Part shown: in pieces, positions 2,292-21,128 of the stretch
Position numbering within the stretch: position 1 is the stretch's first letter
How the letters are laid out: every line of letters starts with the position of its first letter
IMG/VR virus record: IMGVR_UViG_3300025417_000109
Location: 1 to 21,128 of that record
Direction: 5' to 3' (one strand)
Origin: a virus
Length of the DNA stretch: 21,128 nucleotides
Notes under the pieces: model-generated
The model's database searches: none
Seen by the model: only the letters and a program-made list of their open reading frames with translations
What the model was told of the DNA's origin: nothing
Program-made: the position numbers and the translations under genes

Positions 2292-3232
2292 GGGCAAAGC
2301 AGCTAAAGTTTACAGTTGCCGATATTGCCAATTACCAAAAGGTAGATCGTAAAGTCATATACCGAGACATCAAAAGAGGTAAATTCGACCCTTATTACTT
2401 ACCCAGTTTAGCCAGATATTTATTATACACGAAAAAAAGAAAGAAAGTTAAAAATACTATGAGCATGATATTCAACGACCAAAGCTATTCCAAAACGAAT
2501 ACCTACAATCCAGATACCCCAGATCACAAAACTGATGGTCAATCTGTTTTCACTCTTAACGGCAATGATTGCGTAGCTACTTTTAACAACTGCACCTTTG
2601 ACGGGTCAGATGTTCATTGGGGTTTCAAAGCAACCGCATCTTTAGCTCCAGATGGAACAACTCCGATTGTCATCAATGGTGCTTATTACAATAATTGCAC
2701 CTTTATTGATGGTCTTGAACGTGCCTATGACCAAGTCAGGGGTGGTAATGTTGTATTTACCGATTGCAAATTTATCAATACTGGCAAGTACCGAAAAATA
2801 GTTAAAAACGCATTGGAAGTTAGTTCATTTTGTGACTGCGGTTTAAAAGCTGGGGTATTCAATGTTGAGTTTATTCGTTGCTCAATCAATGACGTGCTAC
2901 TTGGCGATTATTCGATCTATGATCAGATCAAACGCCCCAAAACCCGTGGAATTAGCTTTGATAGCTGCGTAAACCCTAATGGGGGGCCTATTTTTGTCCG
3001 TGGTTGGTATGCTGATGCCAATACAATTTGGTCAAAGAATACACTTCTTGATGTAAATATACATCCAGCATGGATGACAACCGCTTACTTTGATTTTGAA
3101 ATGAAATACGGGGATAATCGTAAAGATCTCCCCGGTGAATTTGTTATAACTCCTGTAGAACTAACGCCTGTTACAAATCCCTTTGCCCAGCAATCGGGTT
3201 CTTTGACAACGCACGTTGTAAGTCAGAGTTAG
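2288..3232 (+). CDS. HTH-like N-terminus joined to a beta-helix-like protein
   Basis: 314 aa, unrecognised as a family. Residues 1-57 look like a small excisionase/MerR-style HTH ('TVADIANYQKVDRKVIYRDI', then a Lys/Arg-rich end). From Met58 (2459) the character changes to a Cys/Asn/Thr-rich beta repeat with turns such as 'FNNCTFDG', 'YNNCTFIDG', 'FTDCKFIN' and 'FIRCSIND', typical of right-handed parallel beta-helices in phage fibres and decoration proteins. No signal peptide or membrane segment is seen. The start overlaps the TerL stop (ATGA). The last 62 bases overlap the 3' end of the convergent glycosyltransferase. A second start at ATG 2459 would give a 257-aa beta-helix protein without the HTH. 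The function is unknown; a virion decoration or glycan-binding role is a guess. Confidence 0.6.
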   Translation: MRAKQLKFTVADIANYQKVDRKVIYRDIKRGKFDPYYLPSLARYLLYTKKRKKVKNTMSMIFNDQSYSKTNTYNPDTPDHKTDGQSVFTLNGNDCVATFNNCTFDGSDVHWGFKATASLAPDGTTPIVINGAYYNNCTFIDGLERAYDQVRGGNVVFTDCKFINTGKYRKIVKNALEVSSFCDCGLKAGVFNVEFIRCSINDVLLGDYSIYDQIKRPKTRGISFDSCVNPNGGPIFVRGWYADANTIWSKNTLLDVNIHPAWMTTAYFDFEMKYGDNRKDLPGEFVITPVELTPVTNPFAQQSGSLTTHVVSQS

Positions 3233-3986
3233 ACTTATTTAACTGATCTTTCATATCCTCTAACTTTCCGTTGAGGTGTAAAAAGTCGGTAGTCCCGATA
3301 TGCCCTAGTTGGCATAGAGGGTCTAACCATGCACTTCCGCCACATTTCAACCATCTATAGCAAAGATAATAGTCCTCGGTAATATACCTTGGATATTTAT
3401 CTCCAAACCATAAATCATCTACTACGCCCATACTGAATACATCGTGCATAACGTCTTTGTATTCAAAGGGTGTGGAGTTTTCGTCAGAGTAGTAGGCGAT
3501 TTCTGGAAAGTGAGCGATGATGAAGTCGATTACCTTCATCTTGTGTAACAGAAATCCAGTACCAAGTGACATAGCTGGGAGTAGTCCTTGAGAGTTTGGT
3601 GTATCACTATTAAATTCACCTACCCAAGTAAGTGGTATTTGTTTCTTAGGATAAGCACCGCCTACCATATCTACATCATGGGAAAGGATTCGTTCAATCT
3701 GTTGAGGGCCAGCATTTATATCAGAATCAATCCATAAAACCTGACTTGCAGGTGTCTGTCTGGCTAACCAGAGCAGAGCATTACGGGCTTTGGCTAAACC
3801 AAAACCGCCTATTTTACGGACTATGAACTTATAACCAGCTATCTCGTTATGCGATAGATACGCAAGTATCTGGGAGGTTTCCCATCTGATAGAACCAGTC
3901 ATGGGAACGCCTACGAACACTAACTTTGGATCTCGGTCAGCAGGTTTGACGTGCTTGCCGTATATTTCATTGTGGGGGACAGGCAT
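3171..3986 (-). CDS. GT-A-fold glycosyltransferase, family 2-like
   Basis: The only gene on the minus strand, 271 aa. It shows the layout of small phage glycosyltransferases: N-terminal beta strand 'LVFVGVP' (22-28), 'KARNALLW' (66-73), a DxD metal/nucleotide-sugar motif 'WIDSDIN' (85-91), 'GGAYPKK' (109-115), 'SLGTGFLLHK' (140-149), acidic 'TEDYYLCYRW' (203-212) and a late 'LGHIGTTDF' (227-235) whose His could be a metal ligand. The last 30 residues form a Lys/Gln-rich helix. It would transfer a sugar from a nucleotide sugar to phage DNA, a virion protein or a host glycan; the substrate is not visible. It lies antisense between packaging and portal genes, converging on the beta-helix gene with a 62-base overlap, so it must use its own promoter in the 3987-4090 gap. 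Confidence 0.8.
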   Translation of the reverse strand: MPVPHNEIYGKHVKPADRDPKLVFVGVPMTGSIRWETSQILAYLSHNEIAGYKFIVRKIGGFGLAKARNALLWLARQTPASQVLWIDSDINAGPQQIERILSHDVDMVGGAYPKKQIPLTWVGEFNSDTPNSQGLLPAMSLGTGFLLHKMKVIDFIIAHFPEIAYYSDENSTPFEYKDVMHDVFSMGVVDDLWFGDKYPRYITEDYYLCYRWLKCGGSAWLDPLCQLGHIGTTDFLHLNGKLEDMKDQLNKSNSDLQRALSKNPIAGQRDL

Positions 3987-10292: not shown

Positions 10293-10985
10293 GTGTCCTT
10301 TACTATTCCATCTGTTAGTGATTTCAAATCGCAATTCCAGCGTGATTTCCCATATGCAGTACCTGCGTATGGGGCATCAGGAACTGCCGTCATTAGCGGA
10401 GGAGTAGTAACATCAATTTCTCTCGGAGCCGGTGGGGTTGGTTACGCCACCAATCCCTTAGTCTCGGTGGGGGCGGCTCCGGGAGATTTAGGCACAGGCG
10501 CAACTGCAATTGCCACTATTTCTGGCGGATCTGTAACAGGATTCACAGTTGTAACGGGCGGTTCAAATTATGGATTAACTCCAATCATCACTATTTCTGG
10601 TGGTGCTGGAGATAATACAGATCTGACAAAAGTAACAGATAATGACATTAACGGAGCACTTTTTGATGCTCAGTTTAATGTTAATCAGGCTCTCTTCACT
10701 AACCAAGCTGAGTTCAGTCGAGCTTTTCTCTACCTAACTGCACACCAATTAGTAGAAAAGCTGCTGGCAGCACAAGAGGGCATGGGCAGCCAATACAGTT
10801 GGTTGACGATATCCAAAAGCATAGACTCCGTATCTGAAGGATTTCAGATCCCAGACCGGATAGCCAAGGACCCAATGCTCTCTCACTTTAGCAAAACACG
10901 ATATGGAGCTTTCTATCTCCAGATCATCAGCCCACAACTTATTGCAAATGTACTCGCTGCACCACGAGTTTCATTACCTAACTAA
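10293..10985 (+). CDS. Head-tail connector, DUF4054 type, with inserted Gly-rich repeats
   Basis: Probable adaptor between portal and tail, 230 aa, GTG start just after the preceding stop. The DUF4054 fold is split: 'FKSQFQRDFPYA' (11-22) should run directly into 'TDLTKVTDNDINGALFDAQF' (109-128), but 86 residues intervene. The rest is typical: 'FLYLTAHQLVEKLL', 'ISKSIDSVSEGFQIP' and 'DPMLSHFSKTRYGAFYLQII'. The insert has two units with 'GGVVTSISLGAGGVGYATNP' and 'GGSVTGFTVVTGGSNYGLTP', the same kind found in the sheath and J proteins. It would project from the neck as an extra beta domain. The stop overlaps the next ATG by one base (TAATG). Confidence 0.75.
   Translation: MSFTIPSVSDFKSQFQRDFPYAVPAYGASGTAVISGGVVTSISLGAGGVGYATNPLVSVGAAPGDLGTGATAIATISGGSVTGFTVVTGGSNYGLTPIITISGGAGDNTDLTKVTDNDINGALFDAQFNVNQALFTNQAEFSRAFLYLTAHQLVEKLLAAQEGMGSQYSWLTISKSIDSVSEGFQIPDRIAKDPMLSHFSKTRYGAFYLQIISPQLIANVLAAPRVSLPN
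10359..10616 (+). repeat. Gly-rich GSGY-type double repeat inserted in the connector gene
   Basis: Residues 23-108 of the connector. Two units of about 40 residues, each with a 'GG.VT.....' strand, a 'GG..Y' turn, a Pro and a final beta strand ending in Gly-rich sequence. Removing it would rejoin the conserved DUF4054 N-terminal helix to its next helix. Confidence 0.7.
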
Positions 10986-11488
10986 TGGAAGCTGAAATAA
11001 CATTCGACACGACTGGTTTAAGAGAACTTTTTAAGAATCTCTATAAACGCACGTCTGTAAATGTTGGTGTCACCAAAGATAAAAACGATCGTGATGATGG
11101 TTTTCAAACAAACTCACAGATTGCAGAAGTACACGAATTTGGTGGATTTATTAATGGCATGGATGATGAAGGTAACGATGTACAAATCGAAATACCTGAA
11201 CGTCCTATTATGCGTTTAGCTATACCTGCTTTTTTGCCTGCAAAACTTAAAACGTATCAAGGCGATATGGGTAGTTTTACGCCATTAGATCCATTAACAG
11301 AGTTTGTAGGAATTAAGGCAGTAGAAGTTATACAAGAAAACTTCCAAGAAGCAGGTATGCCTAAAAAATGGGCAGGCATCGCTCCTTTAACCATTGAACG
11401 CCGTGAAGCTAGAGGAAACTTTGATATTACACCTCTTGATGATACGGGTCAGTTAAAGAATTCATTTGGATATGAGGTGGTCAAATGA
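10985..11488 (+). CDS. Tail completion / virion morphogenesis protein (gpG-like)
   Basis: 167 aa, one-base overlap with the connector stop. It has the landmarks of the phage virion morphogenesis (Mu gpG, HK97 gp10-like) group: 'SQIAEVHEFGG' (44-54), 'IPERPIMRLAIPAF' (69-82), a helix 'GIKAVEVIQENFQEAG', then 'WAGIAPLTIERRE' and the C-terminal 'PLDDTGQLKNSFGYEVV'. These proteins close the neck or end the tail and act as a ring at the head-tail joint. It ends in an ATGA overlap with the next gene, indicating one transcription and translation unit of neck genes. Confidence 0.78.
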   Translation: MEAEITFDTTGLRELFKNLYKRTSVNVGVTKDKNDRDDGFQTNSQIAEVHEFGGFINGMDDEGNDVQIEIPERPIMRLAIPAFLPAKLKTYQGDMGSFTPLDPLTEFVGIKAVEVIQENFQEAGMPKKWAGIAPLTIERREARGNFDITPLDDTGQLKNSFGYEVVK

Positions 11489-11913
11489 TTACCCCTATCG
11501 CACAATTTCCAGTAGTTAATGGCCCTATTATTAGTGCTGGTAAGAAAAATCTTACTTACACGAATACGGCTCCGCAGGCTAATTATACTGTTCAAGGTTG
11601 GTCGCAACCAATGCTTATGCTTATTAATAGCGTAAGAATCAAAGAAGGCGACGCTATAACAGTTTCTCGCGAGTTTAAGACTCAGGGCTTCCTTACACCA
11701 GAAAAAGGCCAGAAACTTGAATTAAAATGGGAAGGTGAGCGTTCTTGGAGACATTACAACTTGTTTTGCGTAACTGATCCAAACTTACAAACCAACGATC
11801 AAGTTGTCATTAACTCAATTCCATTTCGTGTAATGCACAAATGGCAATTTCAGAATTTCGGTTATTATAAATATAAACTAGTACAGGATTATACAAGTGA
11901 AACCGAAACCTGA
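11485..11913 (+). CDS. Probable neck protein, unknown family
   Basis: 142 aa, starts in the ATGA overlap with the gene upstream. Predicted to be all beta: 'MLMLINSVRIKEGDAITVSR', 'LTPEKGQKLELKWEGERSW', 'INSIPFRVMHKWQF' and aromatic-rich 'NFGYYKYKLVQDY'. No signal peptide, membrane segment or catalytic motif. Its position between a gpG-like protein and a neck terminator-like protein makes a head-closure or tail-joining role likely, but no family is recognised with confidence. Confidence 0.65.
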   Translation: MITPIAQFPVVNGPIISAGKKNLTYTNTAPQANYTVQGWSQPMLMLINSVRIKEGDAITVSREFKTQGFLTPEKGQKLELKWEGERSWRHYNLFCVTDPNLQTNDQVVINSIPFRVMHKWQFQNFGYYKYKLVQDYTSETET

Positions 11914-12442
11914 AATCATCAATTTACTTGTTAAGTTGATAAAGGATCAACTTGCCTTAGATAACAACCACGTTGTTACCTACAATCAGCGTGTACCTAT
12001 ACCGCCTGATGATGGCATTTTTGTAGCTATTGGTATTAAGGGTGAAAGACTTTACGGAACTAGTACAGGTTACGATCAAGGCACAATCCCTAGTACTCAA
12101 TTAGACCAACCACAGACTCCTGTTTTGAACGAGGTATTAACGCAAAACACACAGGAAATCTATTCCATACAAATCATGTCTAGGAATAATGATGCCCGTG
12201 CTCGTAGGCACGAAATAGTGTTTGCATTAAATTCCACTCAGGCTGAACAAATGCAGGAGAAATATGGATTCAAAATTGGCAATCAACCTACAACTTTCAA
12301 TGATGTTTCTATGGGCGAAGGAGCTTCTCGGCTAACTCGCTACGCTTTAACTTTTAATGTACTTTCTGCTTATGGCAGAACACTCCCAGTGGATTATTAC
12401 GATTCATTTGCAGGATCTCCAGAACTTATAACTCAACCTTAA
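11897..12442 (+). CDS. Neck/tail terminator-like protein (gp12-like)
   Basis: 181 aa from GTG 11897, overlapping the previous gene by 17 bases. The start 'MKPKPEIINLLVKLIKDQL' is a natural N-terminal helix and no later ATG keeps it. The pattern 'IPPDDGIFVAIGIKGERLYG', 'TQEIYSIQIMSRNNDARARR', 'EIVFALNS' and 'ASRLTRYALTFNVLSAYGR' resembles phage neck terminator proteins (gp12-like domain), which cap the tail tube and sheath before head joining. The gene is directly upstream of the tail sheath, where a terminator is expected. Assignment is by pattern and order. Confidence 0.65.
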   Translation: MKPKPEIINLLVKLIKDQLALDNNHVVTYNQRVPIPPDDGIFVAIGIKGERLYGTSTGYDQGTIPSTQLDQPQTPVLNEVLTQNTQEIYSIQIMSRNNDARARRHEIVFALNSTQAEQMQEKYGFKIGNQPTTFNDVSMGEGASRLTRYALTFNVLSAYGRTLPVDYYDSFAGSPELITQP

Positions 12443-12454
12443 CGTATAAATCTT

Positions 12455-13843
12455 ATGTCGATTAGTATCTCAGACTTCGTTAATTTTACAGTGCAACTCC
12501 CCGGAGCTGCACTTCCTGCGTATAATGTTAATTCATTAACATTGTTTACCAGAGACACGCCTATATCAGGCAATACAGTATATGGCTATGGTGCAGCAGC
12601 AACTGCTACTGAAACGGCAGGCACAATTAATCCATCAACAGGTATTGCACTCGTTAGTGGCGGTACAGGATATTTAACTCCTCCTATAGTAACTCTTATT
12701 GGTGGTGGATCAGGTGCTAATTTTAAACCAGCAACTGTAACGGCTCAAGTAGCTGGCGGTGCAGTAACAGGATTTACTGTTGTTGATGGTGGTAGCGGTT
12801 ATACAAGCAATCCAACTGTAGTAATTTCAAGTGGATTTGGCGTATTTGTTGATCCAATTAGCGTTGGTACAGTATTCGGAACTTCTTCTGAAACTTATCA
12901 AATGGCAGTATCAGTATTTAGCCAAACACCTAATATTTTAACAGGTGGCGGTCAGTTGTTCATTTATCCAATGGCATCTGGCATGACATTAACACAAGCT
13001 ATTAATGCTTTTGCTACAACTAACTACACTGGTGGAATTATTTACTGCCAAGGTACTGGTAGCGCATTTACCTCAAGTGATGTTATTGCTGCTGCTAATA
13101 CAGTACAGGCTTTAAATCCGCCTTCATTGCTATATGCTCCAACAAATCTGTTAACAGACATTTATAGCGGTGGTATGTCTTATACCATCCAATCAAATAG
13201 TTGCACACAGACACGCTTAATGATTAATACCAATAGCGTGGTAATGGCTCAGTTAATGTCTGCTGCTTATGCTTCTCGTTTACAAGGAACTAACTTCAAT
13301 GGTTCCAATACAACGATTACAATGAATTTGAAGCAATTAACTGGTATTACTCCTGATCCGTTAATTAATCAAACTGTAGCAAATCAATGTAACACAGTTG
13401 GTGTAGATTATTATGCTTATGTCCAAGGTATTCCTGAAGTTGTTTCAACTGGCGGAAATGGATATTCAGATAATGTTTACAATCTCACTTGGTTATTAGG
13501 TGCATTACAAGTAGCTTGCTTTAACTTTTTAGGACAAACACCTACAAAAATTCCACAAACAGAAGCTGGTATGACTTCATTAAAAAATGTTGTATCTGGA
13601 GTTCTTGCACAAGCAGTTAACAATGGATTTTTAGCACCGGGTACATGGACTGGAACTACATTTGGTAATCCAGCATCGTTAAAAGCTAATATCTCGCAAT
13701 TTGGATATTATGTTTATTCATTACCAGTATCTCAACAATTAGATGCTCAACGCCAAGCTCGTATAGCTCCAGTACTTCAAATTGCTATCAAATATGCTGG
13801 TGCAATCCAAAGCGTAAACGGAATTATCTACATTAACTATTAA
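12455..13843 (+). CDS. Contractile tail sheath protein with inserted Gly-rich repeats
   Basis: 462 aa, DUF3383-like tail sheath. Typical blocks: 'ISISDFVNFTVQLPGAALPA' start, 'SLTLFTRDTP' (27-36), 'FGTSSETYQMAVSVFSQTPN' (141-160), 'FIYPM', 'FATTNYTGGIIYCQG', 'AQLMSAAYASRLQGTNFNGS', 'TMNLKQLTGITPDPLINQTV', 'NQCNTVGVDYYAYV' and 'AGAIQSVNGIIYINY' at the end. Many copies wrap the tube and contract to drive it through the envelope. Between 'FTRDTPISG' and 'VFVDPISVGTVFG' lie about 87 residues (42-128) of two Gly-rich repeats not expected in the family, ending 'TGFTVVDGGSGYTSNPTVVI'. On the assembled tail these would form a repeated surface feature. Tail tube gene follows 11 bases later. Confidence 0.85.
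   Translation: MSISISDFVNFTVQLPGAALPAYNVNSLTLFTRDTPISGNTVYGYGAAATATETAGTINPSTGIALVSGGTGYLTPPIVTLIGGGSGANFKPATVTAQVAGGAVTGFTVVDGGSGYTSNPTVVISSGFGVFVDPISVGTVFGTSSETYQMAVSVFSQTPNILTGGGQLFIYPMASGMTLTQAINAFATTNYTGGIIYCQGTGSAFTSSDVIAAANTVQALNPPSLLYAPTNLLTDIYSGGMSYTIQSNSCTQTRLMINTNSVVMAQLMSAAYASRLQGTNFNGSNTTITMNLKQLTGITPDPLINQTVANQCNTVGVDYYAYVQGIPEVVSTGGNGYSDNVYNLTWLLGALQVACFNFLGQTPTKIPQTEAGMTSLKNVVSGVLAQAVNNGFLAPGTWTGTTFGNPASLKANISQFGYYVYSLPVSQQLDAQRQARIAPVLQIAIKYAGAIQSVNGIIYINY
12578..12838 (+). repeat. Gly-rich GSGY-type double repeat inserted in the sheath gene
   Basis: Residues 42-128 of the sheath. Unit one contains 'ALVSGGTGYLTPPIVTLIGG' and unit two 'GGAVTGFTVVDGGSGYTSNP'. The second unit shares 'GG.VTGFTVV.GGS.Y' with the connector repeat and 'SGYTSNPTV' exactly with the J repeat. 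Confidence 0.7.
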
Positions 13844-13854
13844 TCTTATAAGTC

Positions 13855-14331
13855 ATGGAAATCTCTCTAAACGGAAGTGATGTTATCAACATCAACGGAA
13901 CACTACAACGCGACTTTGCTGATGGCGATGTTGGCGTTTTAACACTACCAAACGAATTAGTGCAGATGAAGCCGGGCAAAAACGGTAATACCGTTATTGC
14001 TTTCAGCGCAACTGGTCAATTAGGCGAATTAACTCTTCGTTTTATTCGTGGTAGCTTTAATGACCAATATATCAACGCACAATATCGTGCATTTGTTTTT
14101 GACCCTGCTTCATATGTTACAATGGAAGCAGTTGTTACTAAACAAATCGGTGATGGTAACGGCAATATCACTTCAGACTCTTATGTCTTAACTGGTGGTG
14201 TTATCCAATCTATCCCAGAAGTTAAGAGCAACGTAGAAGGCGATACAGACCAAGGCGTTACTATTTGGAAATTACGTTTTGCGAAAGTTGAACGTCAAGT
14301 ATCCTCATCTACAGTTAGCTTAGCAGTATAA
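13855..14331 (+). CDS. Tail tube protein (DUF3277-like)
   Basis: 158 aa, the normal length for this tube family. Motifs in order: 'INGTLQRDFADGDVGVLTLP', 'VQMKPGKNGNTVIAFSATGQ', 'GELTLRFIRGSFNDQYIN', 'GDGNGNITSDSYVLTGGVIQ' and 'EVKSNVEGDTDQGVTIWKLR'. It stacks as hexameric rings inside the sheath and conducts DNA. It lies between the sheath and the tail assembly chaperone, the standard order. Arg is CGT/CGC throughout, like the major capsid gene, consistent with high demand. No Shine-Dalgarno sequence precedes the ATG. Confidence 0.85.
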   Translation: MEISLNGSDVININGTLQRDFADGDVGVLTLPNELVQMKPGKNGNTVIAFSATGQLGELTLRFIRGSFNDQYINAQYRAFVFDPASYVTMEAVVTKQIGDGNGNITSDSYVLTGGVIQSIPEVKSNVEGDTDQGVTIWKLRFAKVERQVSSSTVSLAV

Positions 14332-14335
14332 TTCT

Positions 14336-14788
14336 ATGAAAGATATCCCCCTATCTAGTGGCGCAGTACTCGGCTTTCAAATCGCAAGATTTAAAGAAGG
14401 CATGAGATTATGGAATGTTGTATTCAAGGAACTTATTGGAGTTCCTTTTGGGCAAACAGGTGGCAGCTTTGATTTACAATCTTTTTTCCAGCTTGAACCA
14501 AGCCAGATCAAAGATGCAGTACTCAAAGTTGCTACTTCTGAGGAAGTACAGGCAGAAATCTGGAAGTGTATGCAATCATGCACTTATAAAGGAGTTAATG
14601 ATAGTGCTGGCTTGAAGATAACTGAAGCCACATTTGAATCTGAAACCAATAGAGCAGACTTTCTTCCTGTCGCTTGGGAGGTGGCGACCAATAACCTAAT
14701 CCCTTTTTTCAAAAACCTCGGATCGCTGTTATCAACCCCAAGCGAACCAGCAGCCAATGGAACCGAGCAAAAATCAGAGACGAACTAA
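14336..14788 (+). CDS. Tail assembly chaperone, short (G-type) product
   Basis: 150 aa. Acts with the tape measure during tail assembly and is not expected in the finished virion. The folded part (1-125) contains 'LGFQIARFKEGMRLWNVVFK', 'SFFQLEPSQIKDAVLKVA' and 'EIWKCMQSCTYKG'. The last 25 residues in this frame are low complexity ('TPSEPAANGTEQKSETN'), as often seen beyond a frameshift site. The placement between tube and tape measure is diagnostic of the lambda G/GT-type pair. T TTT TTC at 14704-14710 falls on codons 124-125 and would let ribosomes slip back one base to make the longer product. Confidence 0.78.
   Translation: MKDIPLSSGAVLGFQIARFKEGMRLWNVVFKELIGVPFGQTGGSFDLQSFFQLEPSQIKDAVLKVATSEEVQAEIWKCMQSCTYKGVNDSAGLKITEATFESETNRADFLPVAWEVATNNLIPFFKNLGSLLSTPSEPAANGTEQKSETN
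14704..14710 (+). promoter_or_regulatory. Candidate -1 ribosomal frameshift site TTTTTTC
   Basis: The heptamer reads T TTT TTC in the zero frame (Phe124-Phe125), fits the X XXY YYZ rule and allows both tRNAs to re-pair one base back. The -1 frame is open from 14695, just upstream, to 14949. Less good alternatives are CAAAAAC at 14710-14716 and GCAAAAA at 14767-14773. Confidence 0.6.
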
Positions 14789-14952
14789 ATCCTGAAACTA
14801 GAATTGCCCTTCAGCTAAACAGTAAAGGAGTAGGCACTCTAAACGAAATTTTAGAAATGCCTACTGATTTGGTTCTTGATGCATGGCATTTCCATATTTG
14901 TCAGGCTGAAATAGAAGAAACGGAAAGAGAACTTAACAAGGATCAAAGGTAA
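14710..14952 (+). CDS. Tail assembly chaperone, -1 frame extension (T-type domain)
   Basis: Open -1 frame of 80 codons without a usable start before Met near its middle. Joined at 14710 to the first 125 codons it gives a 205-aa fusion. Its protein is typical of the T half of tail chaperones: 'NPETRIALQLNSKGVGTLNE', then 'EMPTDLVLDAWHFHICQAEI' and 'EETERELNKDQR'. It ends with TAATG, overlapping the tape measure ATG by one base, showing that it belongs to the operon. The fusion product binds the tape measure in better studied phages. The same pattern could in principle come from a sequencing error, but the arrangement is standard. Confidence 0.75.
   Translation, partial: QKPRIAVINPKRTSSQWNRAKIRDELNPETRIALQLNSKGVGTLNEILEMPTDLVLDAWHFHICQAEIEETERELNKDQR
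14938..14942 (+). promoter_or_regulatory. Ribosome binding site of the tape measure gene
   Basis: AAGGA lies 9 bases before the ATG at 14952, inside the -1 frame chaperone extension. Confidence 0.4.
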
Positions 14953-16634
14953 TGGCTTCAGGAACTAAAATTGCAGATTTCTTCGTAAAGATTGGCTTTG
15001 ATGTCTCTAAAATTGGAGACCTCAAGGCAGTCACCGAACAACTAAATGCAGCAGCTACACAAGCTAATGCTTTAGCTGCAAATCTTGCCAATGTAGAAAA
15101 GTCATTAAAAAGGCTACAAGTACCTGCTGCTTTAAAGCCATTTGTTAAAGAAAGCAAAGCCAAGGATAAAGCAGATCAAAAGAAAAAGTCTGCCTTTCCT
15201 GACGAAGAAAGAATAGGCCCTCCTCTTGCATTATTTAAGATGCATATGGAGCAACAAAAACTTGCTCAAAAAGAAGCTGATAAGGCTCAAAAAGAATCCG
15301 ATAAGCAAGCCAAGGATCAAGAGCGTCAATTAATACGCACTCAAAGGATTGAAGAAAGATCATATAAAGAAAAGTTAAAGCAAAAATTAACTTTAGAAAA
15401 ATTACGTCTAAAAGAAGAAAAAGACGCAGATAAAGAGATAGTTAAACAAGGAAAATTATTAGGTAAATTTGCAGAAGGTAATGTTTCTGTAATGGATCTT
15501 GTTCAAACTTTTGGAGAACTTGATGCAGTAGCAGTAGCATTTAGTGCAGTTACTATAGGTGCGGTTGCAGGTTTAGTTAAATTATCTAATTGGGCTACAC
15601 AAACTGTAGAACAGTTATTCAAATTTAAATTAGCTACAGGTCTTTCAACACAAGAATTACAACAATGGCAATATGCTGCTGCCAAGGCAGGGGTTAATGG
15701 TGCTGAAGTAGCTAATTCATTAAAAAGCATACAAACTGCACAAGCTCAAATAGCATTAGGGCAAGGAAACATAGCACCTTGGGCATTATTAGGAATTAAT
15801 CCTAATCAAGATCCAAATAAAGCACTTTGGGAAATACACGAAAGAATTAAAGAAAGCGGTGGTATGGCTCCGGGCATGGCTCGTTTGCTTACATCGCAAC
15901 TTGGCATTTCGGAAGAAATGTTTCAATTCCTTCGTAGAGACAATCTTGAATTAGATGAATTAAATAGAAAATTAAGATTATCAGATACCGCAGTTAAGTC
16001 TTTTGATAAATTTAACCAAGCAAGCGGTCAGCTAAGTGCAAACTTTTCTGCTTTAGGAATAAACATAGCTAGATTATTTACGCCATTTGTAAAATTCTTT
16101 ACTGAAGTTTTATCGCAAACAATTAATGATTTGGCTACAATCTTAGGATATATAGATGATTTTACTGAATCAGGTTTAGATGATTGGATGGCTAATGCAT
16201 TTAAAAAAGGATTGCCTTATTTAGATAAAATAATTGCTGCTTTAGAATGGATAGGTCAATGGACATCAGGATCTACTTCTAAAAATAAATTTGGTGAATT
16301 TAAAAATAGTTCAGCAGTTGAGCAAAATGCTCAAAATTTAGCTACATCTAATGCAACATTATCTACGCCATCATCTACTTCAAATACATCAAAAAGTGCT
16401 CCTTGGTGGACTAACTTAGAAGATTCAGTCTTGAAAAGTTTATTTGTACCAACACAAGGTGGCAATAAATCAACTATATCAAGTCAAAAAACTGTTAATG
16501 TTACTATGAATATTGATGGATCAAAAGATCCTAAAGCAGTTGCAGATTATGCTGCTGCTGCCATTAGAAAGCATATGAACGATCAACATTCTTTAGTATC
16601 TGATTTAAGTTCAGTTGGCTCTTTTGTAACATAA
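14952..16634 (+). CDS. Tail tape measure protein
   Basis: 560 aa. Sets tail length and occupies the tube lumen. Residues 1-60 are Ala-rich helical. Residues 95-170 are a highly charged coiled coil (Lys/Glu/Gln: 'KEADKAQKESDKQAKDQERQ'). A hydrophobic segment 'AVAVAFSAVTIGAVAGLVKL' near 190-212 could insert in the host membrane. The centre has 'LSTQELQQWQYAAAKAGVNG', common in tape measures of small myoviruses. The C-terminal third is Ser/Thr-rich, ending 'TMNIDGSKDPKAVADYAAAA'. At the usual 1.5 angstrom per residue this predicts a tail of roughly 80-85 nm. No lytic transglycosylase or peptidase motif is evident. It overlaps the chaperone extension by one base. Confidence 0.85.
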   Translation: MASGTKIADFFVKIGFDVSKIGDLKAVTEQLNAAATQANALAANLANVEKSLKRLQVPAALKPFVKESKAKDKADQKKKSAFPDEERIGPPLALFKMHMEQQKLAQKEADKAQKESDKQAKDQERQLIRTQRIEERSYKEKLKQKLTLEKLRLKEEKDADKEIVKQGKLLGKFAEGNVSVMDLVQTFGELDAVAVAFSAVTIGAVAGLVKLSNWATQTVEQLFKFKLATGLSTQELQQWQYAAAKAGVNGAEVANSLKSIQTAQAQIALGQGNIAPWALLGINPNQDPNKALWEIHERIKESGGMAPGMARLLTSQLGISEEMFQFLRRDNLELDELNRKLRLSDTAVKSFDKFNQASGQLSANFSALGINIARLFTPFVKFFTEVLSQTINDLATILGYIDDFTESGLDDWMANAFKKGLPYLDKIIAALEWIGQWTSGSTSKNKFGEFKNSSAVEQNAQNLATSNATLSTPSSTSNTSKSAPWWTNLEDSVLKSLFVPTQGGNKSTISSQKTVNVTMNIDGSKDPKAVADYAAAAIRKHMNDQHSLVSDLSSVGSFVT

Positions 16635-16638
16635 TACT

Positions 16639-17484
16639 ATGGCAACAAATACCATACCAAGCGACAATCCTAGCATATTTGATAATCTGAGTTTAGCTCA
16701 GGATCTTGTGTATGCTTATCCGTCTCCATTGCCTAATGGTATTGCTGGACTTGTATTCGATATTCGTGGCGAAGAACGTATGGAATTTAGGTCTGAAATT
16801 ACAGATCATTGGGTTGAAGATAATACCGCTATTCACGATCAAATATCTTTGTATCCTGAAAAAGTAACTCTAAAAGGCATCATAGGTATCATAGCTTATC
16901 AGCAGCCATTAACTTCAAGAGCACCTACTCAAAACAATCCTGCATTGCCTTTAGTATCAAATCTTCAGCCTACGTTTACTGAAGGAACTTTACAAGCTAT
17001 TGCTCAATCATCTGCACCTACTATTAATTCAGTAGCTCCAGCAGTAACAAGTTTATATCAATATTACTTAGGTGCTGGAAATCAGGGTAAAAATAATCAG
17101 CAAGCATCTTTAGAAACAAGACAAGAGCAGATTGTAGGATTTTTGTATCAATTATGGAAAGGTCGCCAAATATTTACAGTTGAGACACCTTGGGGTATTT
17201 TAACTCAAATGGCTATTGAGTCTTGCGAACCAATGCAAGATGAGACCACGGAAAACCTTACATATATTTCTATAACATTTAAAAAGTTAAGATTTGCTGG
17301 AGAAGTTATAAGCCAAACAAGTACAGTTGTAGGAAGGTTAGGTGCTGCTGAATTTGAAGTTAATCCATTTGTTCAAGGCAATACGGCTCAACAACAAATT
17401 ACCACACAAGCCCAAGATCAACTATTACAAAATTGGAAAATGGCTTCTGGTTTGGATAAACCAATAACAACAGGAAATCCTTAA
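16639..17484 (+). CDS. Dit-like baseplate adaptor protein
   Basis: 281 aa. The segment 'FDIRGEERMEFRSEITDHWV' followed by 'EDNTAIHDQISLYPEKVTLK' (about 41-80) matches the N-terminal domain of Dit-like baseplate proteins of small myoviruses, where 'SEITDHPVE...' and 'P..l.l.G.i' are conserved. A Gln/Ala-rich linker (90-155) leads to a second beta part with 'GFLYQLWKGRQIFTVETPWG' and 'ENLTYISITFKKLRFA'. It would link the tail tube to the central hub. It follows the tape measure and precedes the plug, hub and spike genes with 3-base spacing to the next gene. Confidence 0.72.
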   Translation: MATNTIPSDNPSIFDNLSLAQDLVYAYPSPLPNGIAGLVFDIRGEERMEFRSEITDHWVEDNTAIHDQISLYPEKVTLKGIIGIIAYQQPLTSRAPTQNNPALPLVSNLQPTFTEGTLQAIAQSSAPTINSVAPAVTSLYQYYLGAGNQGKNNQQASLETRQEQIVGFLYQLWKGRQIFTVETPWGILTQMAIESCEPMQDETTENLTYISITFKKLRFAGEVISQTSTVVGRLGAAEFEVNPFVQGNTAQQQITTQAQDQLLQNWKMASGLDKPITTGNP

Positions 17485-17487
17485 GTT

Positions 17488-17844
17488 ATGCAAAAAATAT
17501 CAGGAATTACAGACGCTCCATGCCAAATATTTAGTTTGGCTATACCTGATGGTTCTACTGCAAATATTACCATTGCATATAGACCTGAACAACAAGGTTG
17601 GTTTTTTGATTTATATTGGAACGCTAAAAGCCCTCAATTTCAAATACTGGGCAGAAGAATAACAACATTTCCTAATCTTTTAAGGCAATTTGAAACGCAA
17701 TTAAGTTTTGGTTTGGCATGTGTAACAAGCGATGGATATGAACCATTAAATCTTAATGATTTTCAATCAGGATACGCTACTTTTTATTTATTAGATCAAA
17801 CTGATATTGCTACTATTGAAAGTTCTGTCTTTGTTGGCTCGTGA
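17488..17844 (+). CDS. Baseplate plug protein, Pam3 gp18-like
   Basis: 118 aa. Compact beta protein with 'IFSLAIPDGSTANITIAYRP', 'QQGWFFDLYWNAKSPQFQIL', 'GRRITTFPNLLRQF', 'FGLACVTSDGYEPLNLNDF' and 'GYATFYLLDQTDI'. This pattern is that of the small baseplate plug family named after cyanophage Pam3 gp18, which closes the end of the tube until contraction. The size agrees. It ends with GTGA, overlapping the hub gene by 4 bases. Confidence 0.72.
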   Translation: MQKISGITDAPCQIFSLAIPDGSTANITIAYRPEQQGWFFDLYWNAKSPQFQILGRRITTFPNLLRQFETQLSFGLACVTSDGYEPLNLNDFQSGYATFYLLDQTDIATIESSVFVGS

Positions 17845-18800
17845 AATTAAATCGCATATACAATTTGCAGGTACAAGTTGGCCCTTACACTAAGCCAGAA
17901 AAAGGGAACACCAAAGGTGCGAGTTCTTCGCAGCCCTATGTGTCTTTTGCGACTAAATATGTAAACATTAAGTTGCCGTTTACTTTAGAGTTTACTGTAA
18001 GACGTGAAAATTTAGCTACTGCACAGACGGCTAATTTTAAGATTTATAATTTAGCTCCTAAAACTAGAGATCAAATCTACAAAGAATGGTTTGATGGCTG
18101 GAAATATAGTGGTATTCAGTTAGCAGCAGGCTATAAAGACAATTTCGTTCCCATAATTTTTACAGGAACGGTAAGGCAGGCTTACACGCAACGTACAGGC
18201 CGTACCAATATGGTTACGGAAATTGAGGCTTATGACGGCGGTTTTGCTCAAGCAAATAGCTATTCTAACATAGCTTTTAGTCCCGGTGCTTCCATGAAGG
18301 AAGTAATTACTCGTTTAAATTCTGACCTTATCGGAGCTTATCCAACACCTGTTATTGGAAATATACCTACAATAATAAATCAAAGAGCATCGGTTTATAC
18401 TGGCCCTACTTTTAATCTTTTACAAAAAATTAGTCCTGTAGGAACTAATATAACCATAGATAACAATCAGCTTAAAGTATTAGGCAATAATGATGGTTTC
18501 TTGGTTAATGAAACAATTTTTAATATAAACTCTAGTACGGGTCTTTTAGATGTACCTATCCGTGAAGGTGTGTTTATTAAATGCAAAATGCTTTTTGAGC
18601 CTCGTTTAACTATTGGTCAAATAGTCAGACTTACGAGCGAAGACCTTCCTCAGTACAATGGCGATTATCCAGTACAAGGATTAGTCCATGAAGGAATTAT
18701 ATCAGATGCCGTAAATGGCCCTTGCACCACTACTGTAAGCCTATACTTAGGGCCGGGTGGGGTTAAATACATAACAGGCGGAGTAACCTTACCTTCATAA
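17841..18800 (+). CDS. Baseplate hub protein
   Basis: 319 aa, GTG start in the GTGA overlap with the plug gene. An N-terminal domain with 'LPFTLEFTVRRENLATAQTA' then 'NFKIYNLAPKTRDQIYKEW' and 'GIQLAAGYKDNFVPIIFTGT' is typical of myovirus hub proteins of gp44/gpD-like fold. A later domain has 'NITIDNNQLKVLGNN', 'GVFIKCKMLFEPRLTIGQIV' and 'YNGDYPVQGLVHEG', which also recur in this family. It forms the trimeric hub that carries the spike. The stop overlaps the spike ATG by one base. Confidence 0.78.
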   Translation: MKLNRIYNLQVQVGPYTKPEKGNTKGASSSQPYVSFATKYVNIKLPFTLEFTVRRENLATAQTANFKIYNLAPKTRDQIYKEWFDGWKYSGIQLAAGYKDNFVPIIFTGTVRQAYTQRTGRTNMVTEIEAYDGGFAQANSYSNIAFSPGASMKEVITRLNSDLIGAYPTPVIGNIPTIINQRASVYTGPTFNLLQKISPVGTNITIDNNQLKVLGNNDGFLVNETIFNINSSTGLLDVPIREGVFIKCKMLFEPRLTIGQIVRLTSEDLPQYNGDYPVQGLVHEGIISDAVNGPCTTTVSLYLGPGGVKYITGGVTLPS

Positions 18801-19483
18801 TGTCATCAGTTACAAACATAGCCAATACATTACCAAGGTCTGCTCCAGACCTAAAGTTATTGCTTTCTCAAGTAACAAGAGAGCTATCTGCTGGTTTGGC
18901 AGTTGCACAAACTGCTACTATAAATAAGTTTTATTCAGATACGCAAACTGCTGATGTTCAAATAAATATGTCCATGATTCTTCAGTATCTTACTGATGAC
19001 AATGGGAACAATCAGCCTGTTTTAGCTTCATATCCACCCTTTGCAGGAGTGCCAGTTATAACTTTAGGTGGCGGTGGAGGTGCAGTAACTTTTCCTATTA
19101 CGGCTGGCGATCAATGCATGTTAGTGTTTATTGATCGTGATATTGATAATTGGTGGCTATCGGGAACGCAGGGATTACCGCCTAATACGACTAGATTACA
19201 CAACTTTTCAGATGCAGTTGCTATAGTTGGTCTTAGAAGTAAAACCAAAAGCCTTTCTAGCTATTCTACGACAGATACTCAGCTTTATGGCCCTGCTGGT
19301 AATACTGGCCCTACTGTTTCATTAGATAGTTCCAAGGTAGGCATTTATAATGCCTCTACGAGCCTATTGACTGTAATGAATGATATTATTACTGCTCTAA
19401 GAGCATTAAATGGCAAAACTGGGCCAGATTGTACTACTCAGATAAATGCAGCTAATGATGCTATAACTTCCTTACTTAAATGA
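18800..19483 (+). CDS. Baseplate spike protein, gp138/gp5-type OB fold
   Basis: 227 aa. The N-terminal OB-fold domain (about 25-130) shows 'RELSAGLAVAQTATINKFYS', 'QTADVQINM', 'PFAGVPVITLGGGGGAVTFP', 'ITAGDQCMLVFIDRDIDNWW' and 'LHNFSDAVAIVGLR', the signature of phage gp138 N-terminal/spike proteins. The C-terminal part is short with Gly/Asn/Thr repeats and a helical end ('ITALRALNGKTGPDCTTQIN'). It lacks the long needle and metal-binding HxH tip of larger spikes. Overlaps hub by one base and the next gene by 4 bases (ATGA). Confidence 0.82.
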   Translation: MSSVTNIANTLPRSAPDLKLLLSQVTRELSAGLAVAQTATINKFYSDTQTADVQINMSMILQYLTDDNGNNQPVLASYPPFAGVPVITLGGGGGAVTFPITAGDQCMLVFIDRDIDNWWLSGTQGLPPNTTRLHNFSDAVAIVGLRSKTKSLSSYSTTDTQLYGPAGNTGPTVSLDSSKVGIYNASTSLLTVMNDIITALRALNGKTGPDCTTQINAANDAITSLLK

Positions 19484-19854
19484 GTGCACCATCAATGATT
19501 TTCAGGGGTTTAACCCCGACAGGAGACTGGGTATTCGGTCAGGGAAATAGTAGCTACTTAACCAATAATGCTGCCATAGCTTTAAATATACAGACTGCTT
19601 TAAAATTATTTTTAAACGATGCTTTTTGGGCAGCTAATCAAGGAATTGATTGGATCAATCTATTAGGCAATTTAAACACGGAAAACGCTATTTTAACTCA
19701 AATTCGCAATACTATAGCTAATTGCTATGGGGTTGTTCAGATAACGAGCGTAAATGCAAATCTCAATCGTTCGCAACGATTGTTGACCGTAAGTTATAAC
19801 ATATCCACCATTTATTCTACAAATATCTCAAGTTCGACATCGCTATCCATTTAA
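19480..19854 (+). CDS. Baseplate wedge / sheath initiator, gp25-like
   Basis: 124 aa, close to the family length. 'FRGLTPTGDWVFGQGNSSYL', 'NIQTALKLFLNDAFWAANQG', 'IDWINLLGN', a helix 'NAILTQIRNTIANCYGVVQI' and 'QRLLTVSYNISTIYS' fit the GPW/gp25 group of short baseplate proteins that start sheath polymerisation. It lies between spike and J-like gene, as expected. The start overlaps the spike gene by 4 bases. Its C-terminus is a Ser/Thr/Ile stretch. Confidence 0.75.
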   Translation: MSAPSMIFRGLTPTGDWVFGQGNSSYLTNNAAIALNIQTALKLFLNDAFWAANQGIDWINLLGNLNTENAILTQIRNTIANCYGVVQITSVNANLNRSQRLLTVSYNISTIYSTNISSSTSLSI

Positions 19855-19859
19855 CGACG

Positions 19860-19902
19860 ATGCCCAACTAATAGATTCTTATTCCCAATACTATTGATTC
19901 AA
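19860..19902 (+). repeat. Imperfect tandem duplication at the 5' end of the J-like gene
   Basis: ATGCCCAACTAATAGATTC (19860-19878) resembles ATTCCCAATACTATTGATTC (19881-19900) with several differences. The first copy has the ATG but two stops. The second has ATT in place of ATG and leads into the conserved reading frame. Confidence 0.5.
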
Positions 19903-21128
19903 ACGGCCTTCAGATCCAGACGATTTCGGAAATTATAAGCGAAATCGAGTACGGAACTGTCGATTATCCGGGCTATCTGACAATTTTTCCGGGAGCAAAT
20001 GTTAATGCTAATTCTCCAGATTCAAATTTAATTAACATTTTTGCACAGGCTAAATTGGATATGCTTCAATTTGCCGAACAAGTTAATTCACAATTTGATC
20101 CTGATCAAGCGGTAGGTACGATTTTAGATGCTCGTTGTGCTATTAATGGTGTTGTTCGTTTAGCTGGTAGCTATACTCAACAACTAATACAAATTACTGT
20201 TTCTGCTCCAGTAACAATTTATGGATTAAGTAGTACACCTACTTCTCCTTTTACTGTAGCAGATGCTCAAGGTAATCAATATCAGCTTTTGACAGATGCT
20301 ACAATTACTAGCCCAAGTACATATCCATATACTGCTACTTATGCTTTTCAGGCAGCCTTAATTGGACCAGTTCAATCTGCGGTAAATAGTATTACAAATA
20401 TAGTTACTGTTACTTCAAATGTTACGGCAGTAAATAATAGTTCTTTATACACTACACTAGGGCAAAATGAAGAAACTGACGCAGAATTAAGACTTCGCAG
20501 ATCTCTTTCGGTATCACTTCCATCTAAAGGTTATTTAGCAGGATTAGAAGGCGGTCTTTTAAGTATTGATGGAGTAAATTATGTTCAAGTATTAGAAAAT
20601 ACTGGATCTACTGTTAATACACAAGGTGTAGCACCTCATGGAATTTGGGTTACTGTTGCTACAAGCATAGCATTAACCAGCATACAATCTAACAATAAAA
20701 CTTTAGCTTATAATATAGCTAATGTAATTTATAACAAAAGAAATGCAGGTTGTGCTCAAACCAATACAGGTGCTTGTGCTACTGCTACGGCATCAGCTTC
20801 TGGATCTACAGTTACTGTAACTATTGGATCTGGCGGTTCTGGTTTTATTTATCCACCATTAGTAACATTAACTGGTGGCGGTGGTACATATACTTCTGCT
20901 ACTGCTACAATTTCTTCAGGCACAATAACTGCAATTACAGTATCTGGAGCTAGTGGATATACATCTAATCCTACTGTTCATATAAATCCTTACACAACTG
21001 AGGTCGATATTACACAATTAGATAATAATATATTTCCTGTATATTTTGATTCTCCTGTTGTTAAAAATATTTATTTTAAAGCACTCCTTTATTTTTTTTT
21101 GTATTTTACTTGCTTTAATTATTTTAAT
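19875..21128 (+). CDS. Baseplate J-like wedge protein (partial, non-ATG start)
   Basis: Open to the right edge, 418 codons visible. The frame carries 'IDSNGLQIQTISEIISEIE', 'NSPDSNLINIFAQAKLDMLQ', 'FDPDQAVGTILDARCAINGV', 'ETDAELRLRRSLSVSLPSKG', 'SIDGVNYVQVLENTG' and 'APHGIWVTV', the order of gp47/gpJ-type wedge proteins. No ATG, GTG or TTG precedes the conserved start without a stop: the in-frame ATG at 19860 is followed after three codons by TAA TAG. ATT at 19875 or 19881 is therefore the likely start. Near the end an insert (20769-20990) of the Gly-rich repeat type splits 'NKRNAGC' from 'TEVDITQLDNNIFPVYFDSP'. The final 40 bases are T-rich and may be poor sequence. Confidence 0.78.
   Translation, partial: MLIPNTIDSNGLQIQTISEIISEIEYGTVDYPGYLTIFPGANVNANSPDSNLINIFAQAKLDMLQFAEQVNSQFDPDQAVGTILDARCAINGVVRLAGSYTQQLIQITVSAPVTIYGLSSTPTSPFTVADAQGNQYQLLTDATITSPSTYPYTATYAFQAALIGPVQSAVNSITNIVTVTSNVTAVNNSSLYTTLGQNEETDAELRLRRSLSVSLPSKGYLAGLEGGLLSIDGVNYVQVLENTGSTVNTQGVAPHGIWVTVATSIALTSIQSNNKTLAYNIANVIYNKRNAGCAQTNTGACATATASASGSTVTVTIGSGGSGFIYPPLVTLTGGGGTYTSATATISSGTITAITVSGASGYTSNPTVHINPYTTEVDITQLDNNIFPVYFDSPVVKNIYFKALLYFFLYFTCFNYFN
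20769..20990 (+). repeat. Gly-rich GSGY-type double repeat inserted in the J-like gene
   Basis: Residues 299-372 counted from ATT 19875. Unit one holds 'TVTIGSGGSGFIYPPLVTLT' and unit two 'TITAITVSGASGYTSNPTVH'. It lies where other J proteins run directly from the 'GCG' loop into their last beta domain. Confidence 0.7.

Follow-up and report, generated by a model that had tools for sequence, protein, structure and literature searches.

Genes and modules at the locus

The window analysed here, that is, the whole stretch of 21,128 nucleotides, is a 21-kb piece of an IMG/VR virus record and contains a block of head and contractile-tail genes. Its source is an uncultured freshwater XM1-like myophage. 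Three genes of this block, coding for a head-tail connector, the tail sheath and a baseplate J protein, each carry one copy of a module with the signature GxGY-x3-P-x-V. One module is a pair of similar units with a length of about 75 to 85 residues, and a single unit is half of it. The genes concerned, together with a fourth one that bears the module in relatives, are as follows.

10293-10985, plus strand: DUF4054 head-tail connector (adaptor), module-bearing, between the capsid and sheath genes (PF13262 at residues 111-212, E 1.1e-8)
10359-10613, plus strand: connector module, units 10401-10469 and 10527-10595, flanked by an N-terminal FxRDFPYA segment and a segment starting with VTDxDI
12455-13843, plus strand: DUF3383 / phrog_205 tail sheath, module-bearing (PF11863, E 1.5e-36)
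12581-12835, plus strand: sheath module, units 12620-12697 and 12758-12826, residues 43-127
19480-19854, plus strand: gp25-like sheath initiator, without module (phrog_120, E 5.8e-19), empty site near 19518/19519
19875-21128, plus strand: baseplate J / wedge protein (XM1 gp16-like), module-bearing (phrog_6, E 6.9e-24; XM1 gp16 chain, E 1.4e-4)
20757-20990, plus strand: J module, units 20802-20870 and 20919-20984, at the turn following IYNKRNAGC

The J gene is incomplete, as the window stops within it, and its reading frame is open from 19875, upstream of 20055. Between 19855 and 19960 there is no ATG, GTG or TTG from the preceding stop to the conserved J N-terminus (ILIPNTIDSNG...), and the sequence of the relative L006 is identical to the window over this region; translation of J possibly starts at ATT or another unusual codon. 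At 21080-21128 the end of the window no longer matches the J gene of L006, which is either an error at the contig end or true divergence. In addition, a frame of 271 amino acids lies on the minus strand at 3171-3986 within the forward structural block, and a reading of its translation makes it a candidate glycosyltransferase.

Homology of the three modules

The modules of the connector, the sheath and the J protein are homologous. In pairwise BLASTP of the modules (SEG off, database size set to 1e6), the E-values are 1e-8 for connector and sheath, 1e-3 for connector and J, and 6e-4 for sheath and J, with an identity of 47 to 49% between the sheath and connector modules. Profile searches across genes give much the same picture, using HMMs each trained on the modules of one gene in relatives with the clade of the window excluded. 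The connector HMM detects the window modules of sheath and J at 2.9e-16 and 2.1e-11, the sheath HMM those of connector and J at 8e-15 and 8.3e-15, and the J HMM those of connector and sheath at 2.7e-17 and 2.5e-15. An earlier note, made from the DNA alone, had proposed one repeat module shared by three unrelated host proteins, with two units in each, and had suggested an HMM as the check; the cross-gene alignments and E-values of about 1e-11 to 1e-17 support the proposal, two units are seen in all three genes, and the strings it quoted are present as described (SGYTSNPTV in sheath and J, TGFTVV in connector and sheath). Chance or compositional likeness of glycine-rich sequence deserves consideration here, since the content of glycine and threonine is high and the HMMER bias corrections amount to about 16 to 25 bits. 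However, the best of 6,000 residue shuffles of the same composition reach only about 11 bits while the real modules score 37 to 92 bits, so that composition is ruled out as the cause; the modules also share a confidently predicted fold and have clean insertion boundaries. We therefore reject compositional resemblance by the shuffle test, and its probability is practically negligible.

Occupied and empty sites in relatives

Based on a comparison set of 88 loci with sheath homologues, the module is shown to be an optional insert at one fixed site per gene, in three virion genes of the window and in four among relatives. Module-bearing and module-free genes share both flanks, and the site in each gene is essentially fixed throughout the 88 loci. 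Counting full-length genes, the module occurs in 29 of 60 connectors, 39 of 85 sheaths, 6 of 45 gp25-like genes and 13 of 39 J genes, figures that are not independent as many loci are near-identical. Empty sites are found in the connectors of L024, L067, L056, L058, L085, L083 and L066, in the sheaths of L055, L054, L024, L056, L085, L066, L057 and L023, and in the J genes of L048, L054, L024, L056, L085, L066, L023 and L057. The earlier note had considered the segments to be insertions, a reading that would fail if they were core parts of nearly all homologues; the clean empty sites for all three genes, with both flanks retained, bear out insertion.

The sites are occupied in various combinations. 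Connector, sheath and J all carry the module in the window as well as in L006, L037, L043, L040 and L044, and L016 has it in all four genes including the gp25-like one. L048 has modules in connector and sheath with a module-free J, L055 in connector and J with a module-free sheath, and L054 in the connector only. Two tandem modules are present in the J gene of L040 (L040:15598-16083), and over the 70-kb record of L040 the module is confined to connector, sheath and J. For the gp25-like gene, six relatives (L010, L015, L016, L021, L022 and L028) have the module at the site that is empty in the window, the insert being 77 to 78 residues long where the window has a bare turn.

Predicted structure

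AlphaFold2 predicts a confident all-beta domain for 41 modules (pLDDT 91.7, pTM 0.80). In the model of the full sheath (pLDDT 89.8), the module forms a stretch of its own, flanked by the predicted strands 28-32 and 129-131. The module is thus predicted to be an autonomously folding beta domain, and structure prediction upholds its earlier description as a domain of its own. Among solved structures, the best relative of the window sheath is that of the Vibrio phage XM1 (7kh1), which the sheath model matches with Z 38.2 over 344 residues at 3.8 A, and both the sequence family (DUF3383) and the fold of the window sheath are those of an XM1-type contractile sheath. Searches of the module against PDB give weak matches, with a best chain of E 2.0 by Foldseek and Z of at most 2.9 by VIA, neither of which proves a new fold; the VIA matches include some Ig-containing chains at Z 2 to 2.9 (weak), and a sequence search of PDB with the module profile finds nothing credible. 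In BFVD, 27 viral predicted structures are matched at E <= 1e-3, and those with names include cyanophage neck (S-RIM32 neck protein), structural and baseplate wedge proteins.

Occurrence beyond the clade

On the whole, the module family is shown by sequence searches to be widespread in phage virion proteins, to occur in some bacterial proteins, and to be unnamed in the libraries searched. With the gp25 module as tblastn query at the loose limit of E 10, 360 phage records are found, mostly cyanophages, and the sheath module gives no tblastn match against phages at E 1e-3, for which the low-complexity filter or the E limit is perhaps responsible. A degenerate DNA pattern detects at least 120 viral and at least 118 genome stretches, almost all of which are confirmed by HMM. 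Among cultured cyanophages, the module HMM matches two large proteins of Syn9 annotated as baseplate wedge or fibre-like virion proteins together with gp14, and in P-HM2 it matches gp7, a second protein annotated as gp7 and, weakly, gp8. The spread of the module over one virion, which the earlier note regarded as the unusual part, is therefore already shared with cultured cyanophages.

In a Pfam survey of 86 viral and 60 genome-derived module proteins (for the genome set, families among the best 25 listed), the host families include gp8, T4 neck protein, gp15, tail tube, sheath, baseplate wedge, SU10 adaptor, cement and SusD. In the hosts read individually, the Pfam match lies apart from the module, or the module interrupts it or overlaps its edge. 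The host proteins of the virion are of outward-facing classes, as would be expected for the exposed positions proposed earlier. None of the matches listed for the window hosts and for the viral and genome-derived proteins is to a Pfam or NCBIfam family modelling the module itself, and typical motif strings of the module are not found in the open-licence papers searched. In one case (L246:2347-3198) the module lies inside or beside a Kordia DUF2589 protein, which is not an obvious surface protein.

The tail tube deserves attention, since Ig domains on tail tubes would clash with the sheath (PMC8718954). In the XM1-like clade the module is present in the sheath and is not found in the tail tube. 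Five records have the module in a TTP_11 tail tube, and these show no PF04984 or PF11863 match, bearing in mind that they are fragments and that other sheath families exist; PF11863 is detected in both myophage positive-control records. Because an Ig domain on the tube would clash with a sheath, modules on tubes in records without a sheath match are what surface exposure predicts.

Evolutionary history

On the tree of sheath cores, the fewest changes needed are two for the connector, one for the sheath, two for gp25 and two for J, where gain and loss are not told apart. The modules group by gene, with 7 changes against 23.8 in shuffles, on a module tree built from a short alignment of 78 columns; for none of the genes do AU tests reject one common origin of its modules (p 0.05 to 0.47). 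When each window module is compared by BLAST with 623 modules, viral and bacterial modules from outside score as high as or higher than those of the same virion. Copies in the same genome are thus no closer to one another than to outside copies, which is not the pattern of recent intragenomic mobility.

Recent hopping of one module among the genes of the same phage, as the earlier note suggested, would account for the common strings SGYTSNPTV and TGFTVV and for the level of identity between the sheath and connector modules. But the grouping by gene, the equal closeness of unrelated viral and bacterial modules, and the fixed sites with few changes per gene all stand against it, and we consider it very unlikely. 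Because outside modules score at least as high as same-virion ones, the shared strings are, as judged from sequence scores, a family consensus and no sign of recent transfer among these genes. We infer that the module was acquired a few times long ago, each time separately and from a large pool outside the phage, and was then inherited vertically. Given a tree of so few columns, on which no gene rejects one origin of its modules, an old duplication of the module within the phage may also have occurred.

Three local observations concern recombination. The dS of the connector module is low between the window and L016, and module-specific recombination was considered for it and rejected: identity is equally high in the region preceding the gene and declines only past it, as at an ordinary recombination boundary. 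Right after the connector gene (10985-11488), identity between the window and L016 drops from about 85% to about 50%, marking such a boundary. In another pair, the sheaths L007:3161-4567 and L021:513-1922 show a single difference in a sliding comparison, a patch of about 24 bases that lies in the module between the units and is a local replacement by recombination or by another mechanism.

The module is kept under purifying selection, though as a rule the core of the host protein is more tightly constrained. The dN/dS of the module is 0.06-0.49 in 16 gene pairs, which are not independent, and exceeds that of the host core in 14 of the 16.

Possible function

The explanation that we favour, at slightly better than even confidence, is a two-repeat optional beta domain displayed promiscuously at the virion surface for weak multivalent contacts, with copies acquired separately and then inherited vertically. 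In the assembled virion, the module would stick out from neck, sheath and baseplate. It would be present in about 150 copies, an estimate that assumes XM1 stoichiometry (12 adaptors, 6 sheath subunits per ring and 12 wedge J proteins) and a tail length that scales with the 560-residue putative tape measure. These copies would give weak multivalent contacts, most likely to surface or environmental polysaccharide, and would thereby favour retention or adsorption, in line with what has been proposed for the Ig-like domains of phages. They would have been gained one by one from the large outside pool and passed on vertically, not by hopping within the phage. The display role is inferred from the classes of host proteins and from the proposal for phage Ig-like domains (PMC9230969, PMC8718954); by the same analogy the module may bind glycans, and it is probably a general-purpose surface patch. 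Protection and virion-to-virion contact are further possible roles, proposed in the earlier note. The bacterial module hosts are not all clearly exported.

Purifying selection fits a purely structural or stabilising role as well, and the module might act as a clamp that stabilises the virion through neighbouring neck, sheath and baseplate subunits and binds nothing outside. Extra sheath domains have been suggested as tail stabilisers (PMC9230969), the Ig domain of lambda gpV adds a small intra-ring contact (PMC8718954), and all four host genes of the clade serve tail assembly. Against such a role stand the occurrence of the module at unrelated sites in many unrelated proteins, its absence from at least one of the genes in close relatives, and the many tandem copies in cyanophage fibre-like proteins; we judge a clamp unlikely. 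Alternatively, the module could be a soluble domain that chance recombination has spread, that surface turns tolerate and that brings little benefit. The excess of its dN/dS over the host core points in this direction, as does the module-free gp25-like gene of the window where relatives have the insert; the same dN/dS values nevertheless lie well under 1, and sites and copies persist even where sheaths have diverged to about 50 to 60% identity, and we judge a mere passenger unlikely. Returning to surface display, we give about an even chance to a wider reading, namely that the module belongs to a large unnamed family of promiscuous domains, a non-Ig equivalent of the Ig-like domains of phages, for which no solved relative is recognised and which is present in many outward-facing virion classes (cement, adaptor, neck, terminator, siphophage tube, sheath, sheath initiator, wedge and fibres) as well as in bacterial surface proteins.

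If this is true, a common building block of the phage exterior, found in cultured cyanophages and in many metagenomic viruses, has neither a family model, nor a solved structure, nor an assigned function. In the freshwater clade, natural variants with and without the module exist at four fixed sites of one tail, and they make the roles of accessory surface domains directly testable by removal. What is new may be the breadth of this unnamed promiscuous domain together with the natural presence/absence series of the clade.

Comparison with known systems

A known system alike in manner of working is that of the phage Ig-like domains Big_1, Big_2 and FN3 (Fraser et al. 2006, as cited in PMC8718954 and PMC9230969), which are likewise optional and promiscuous extras and occur on various virion proteins, tail tube and sheath among them. 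The difference is that our module has no Ig-family profile match, neither in the three window hosts (Pfam, E <= 1) nor in 86 viral module proteins (E <= 1e-3), and no convincing fold match. The XM1 gp6 sheath (7kh1) has the same sheath core as the window sheath and also bears a lineage-specific inserted domain; the XM1 insert resembles FliD D3 (PMC10457771), whereas that of the window is the GxGY module. In the T4-like sheath of phiM9 (KP881232), the module HMM matches residues 92-177 weakly in two places (i-Evalues 0.002 and 0.051) and the sheath also has a BFVD match at E 7e-3, which is no more than suggestive of homology to the module, in a divergent 'GYxxGD' variant.

The T4-like cyanophages share the module itself, in GxGY-repeat virion proteins that include the gp14 neck Hc2, the gp7 wedge and giant fibre-like proteins (phrog_701, phrog_460, phrog_708 and phrog_19630). 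These match the two-unit HMM, with E-values down to 1e-91 for the Syn9 protein at L213 35763-49901, have the same predicted fold in BFVD, and likewise involve several virion genes per phage. Unlike the window phage, the cyanophages often have many tandem copies in very large proteins, while the window phage carries single two-unit modules on compact tail proteins, including the sheath and, in its relatives, the gp25-like protein.
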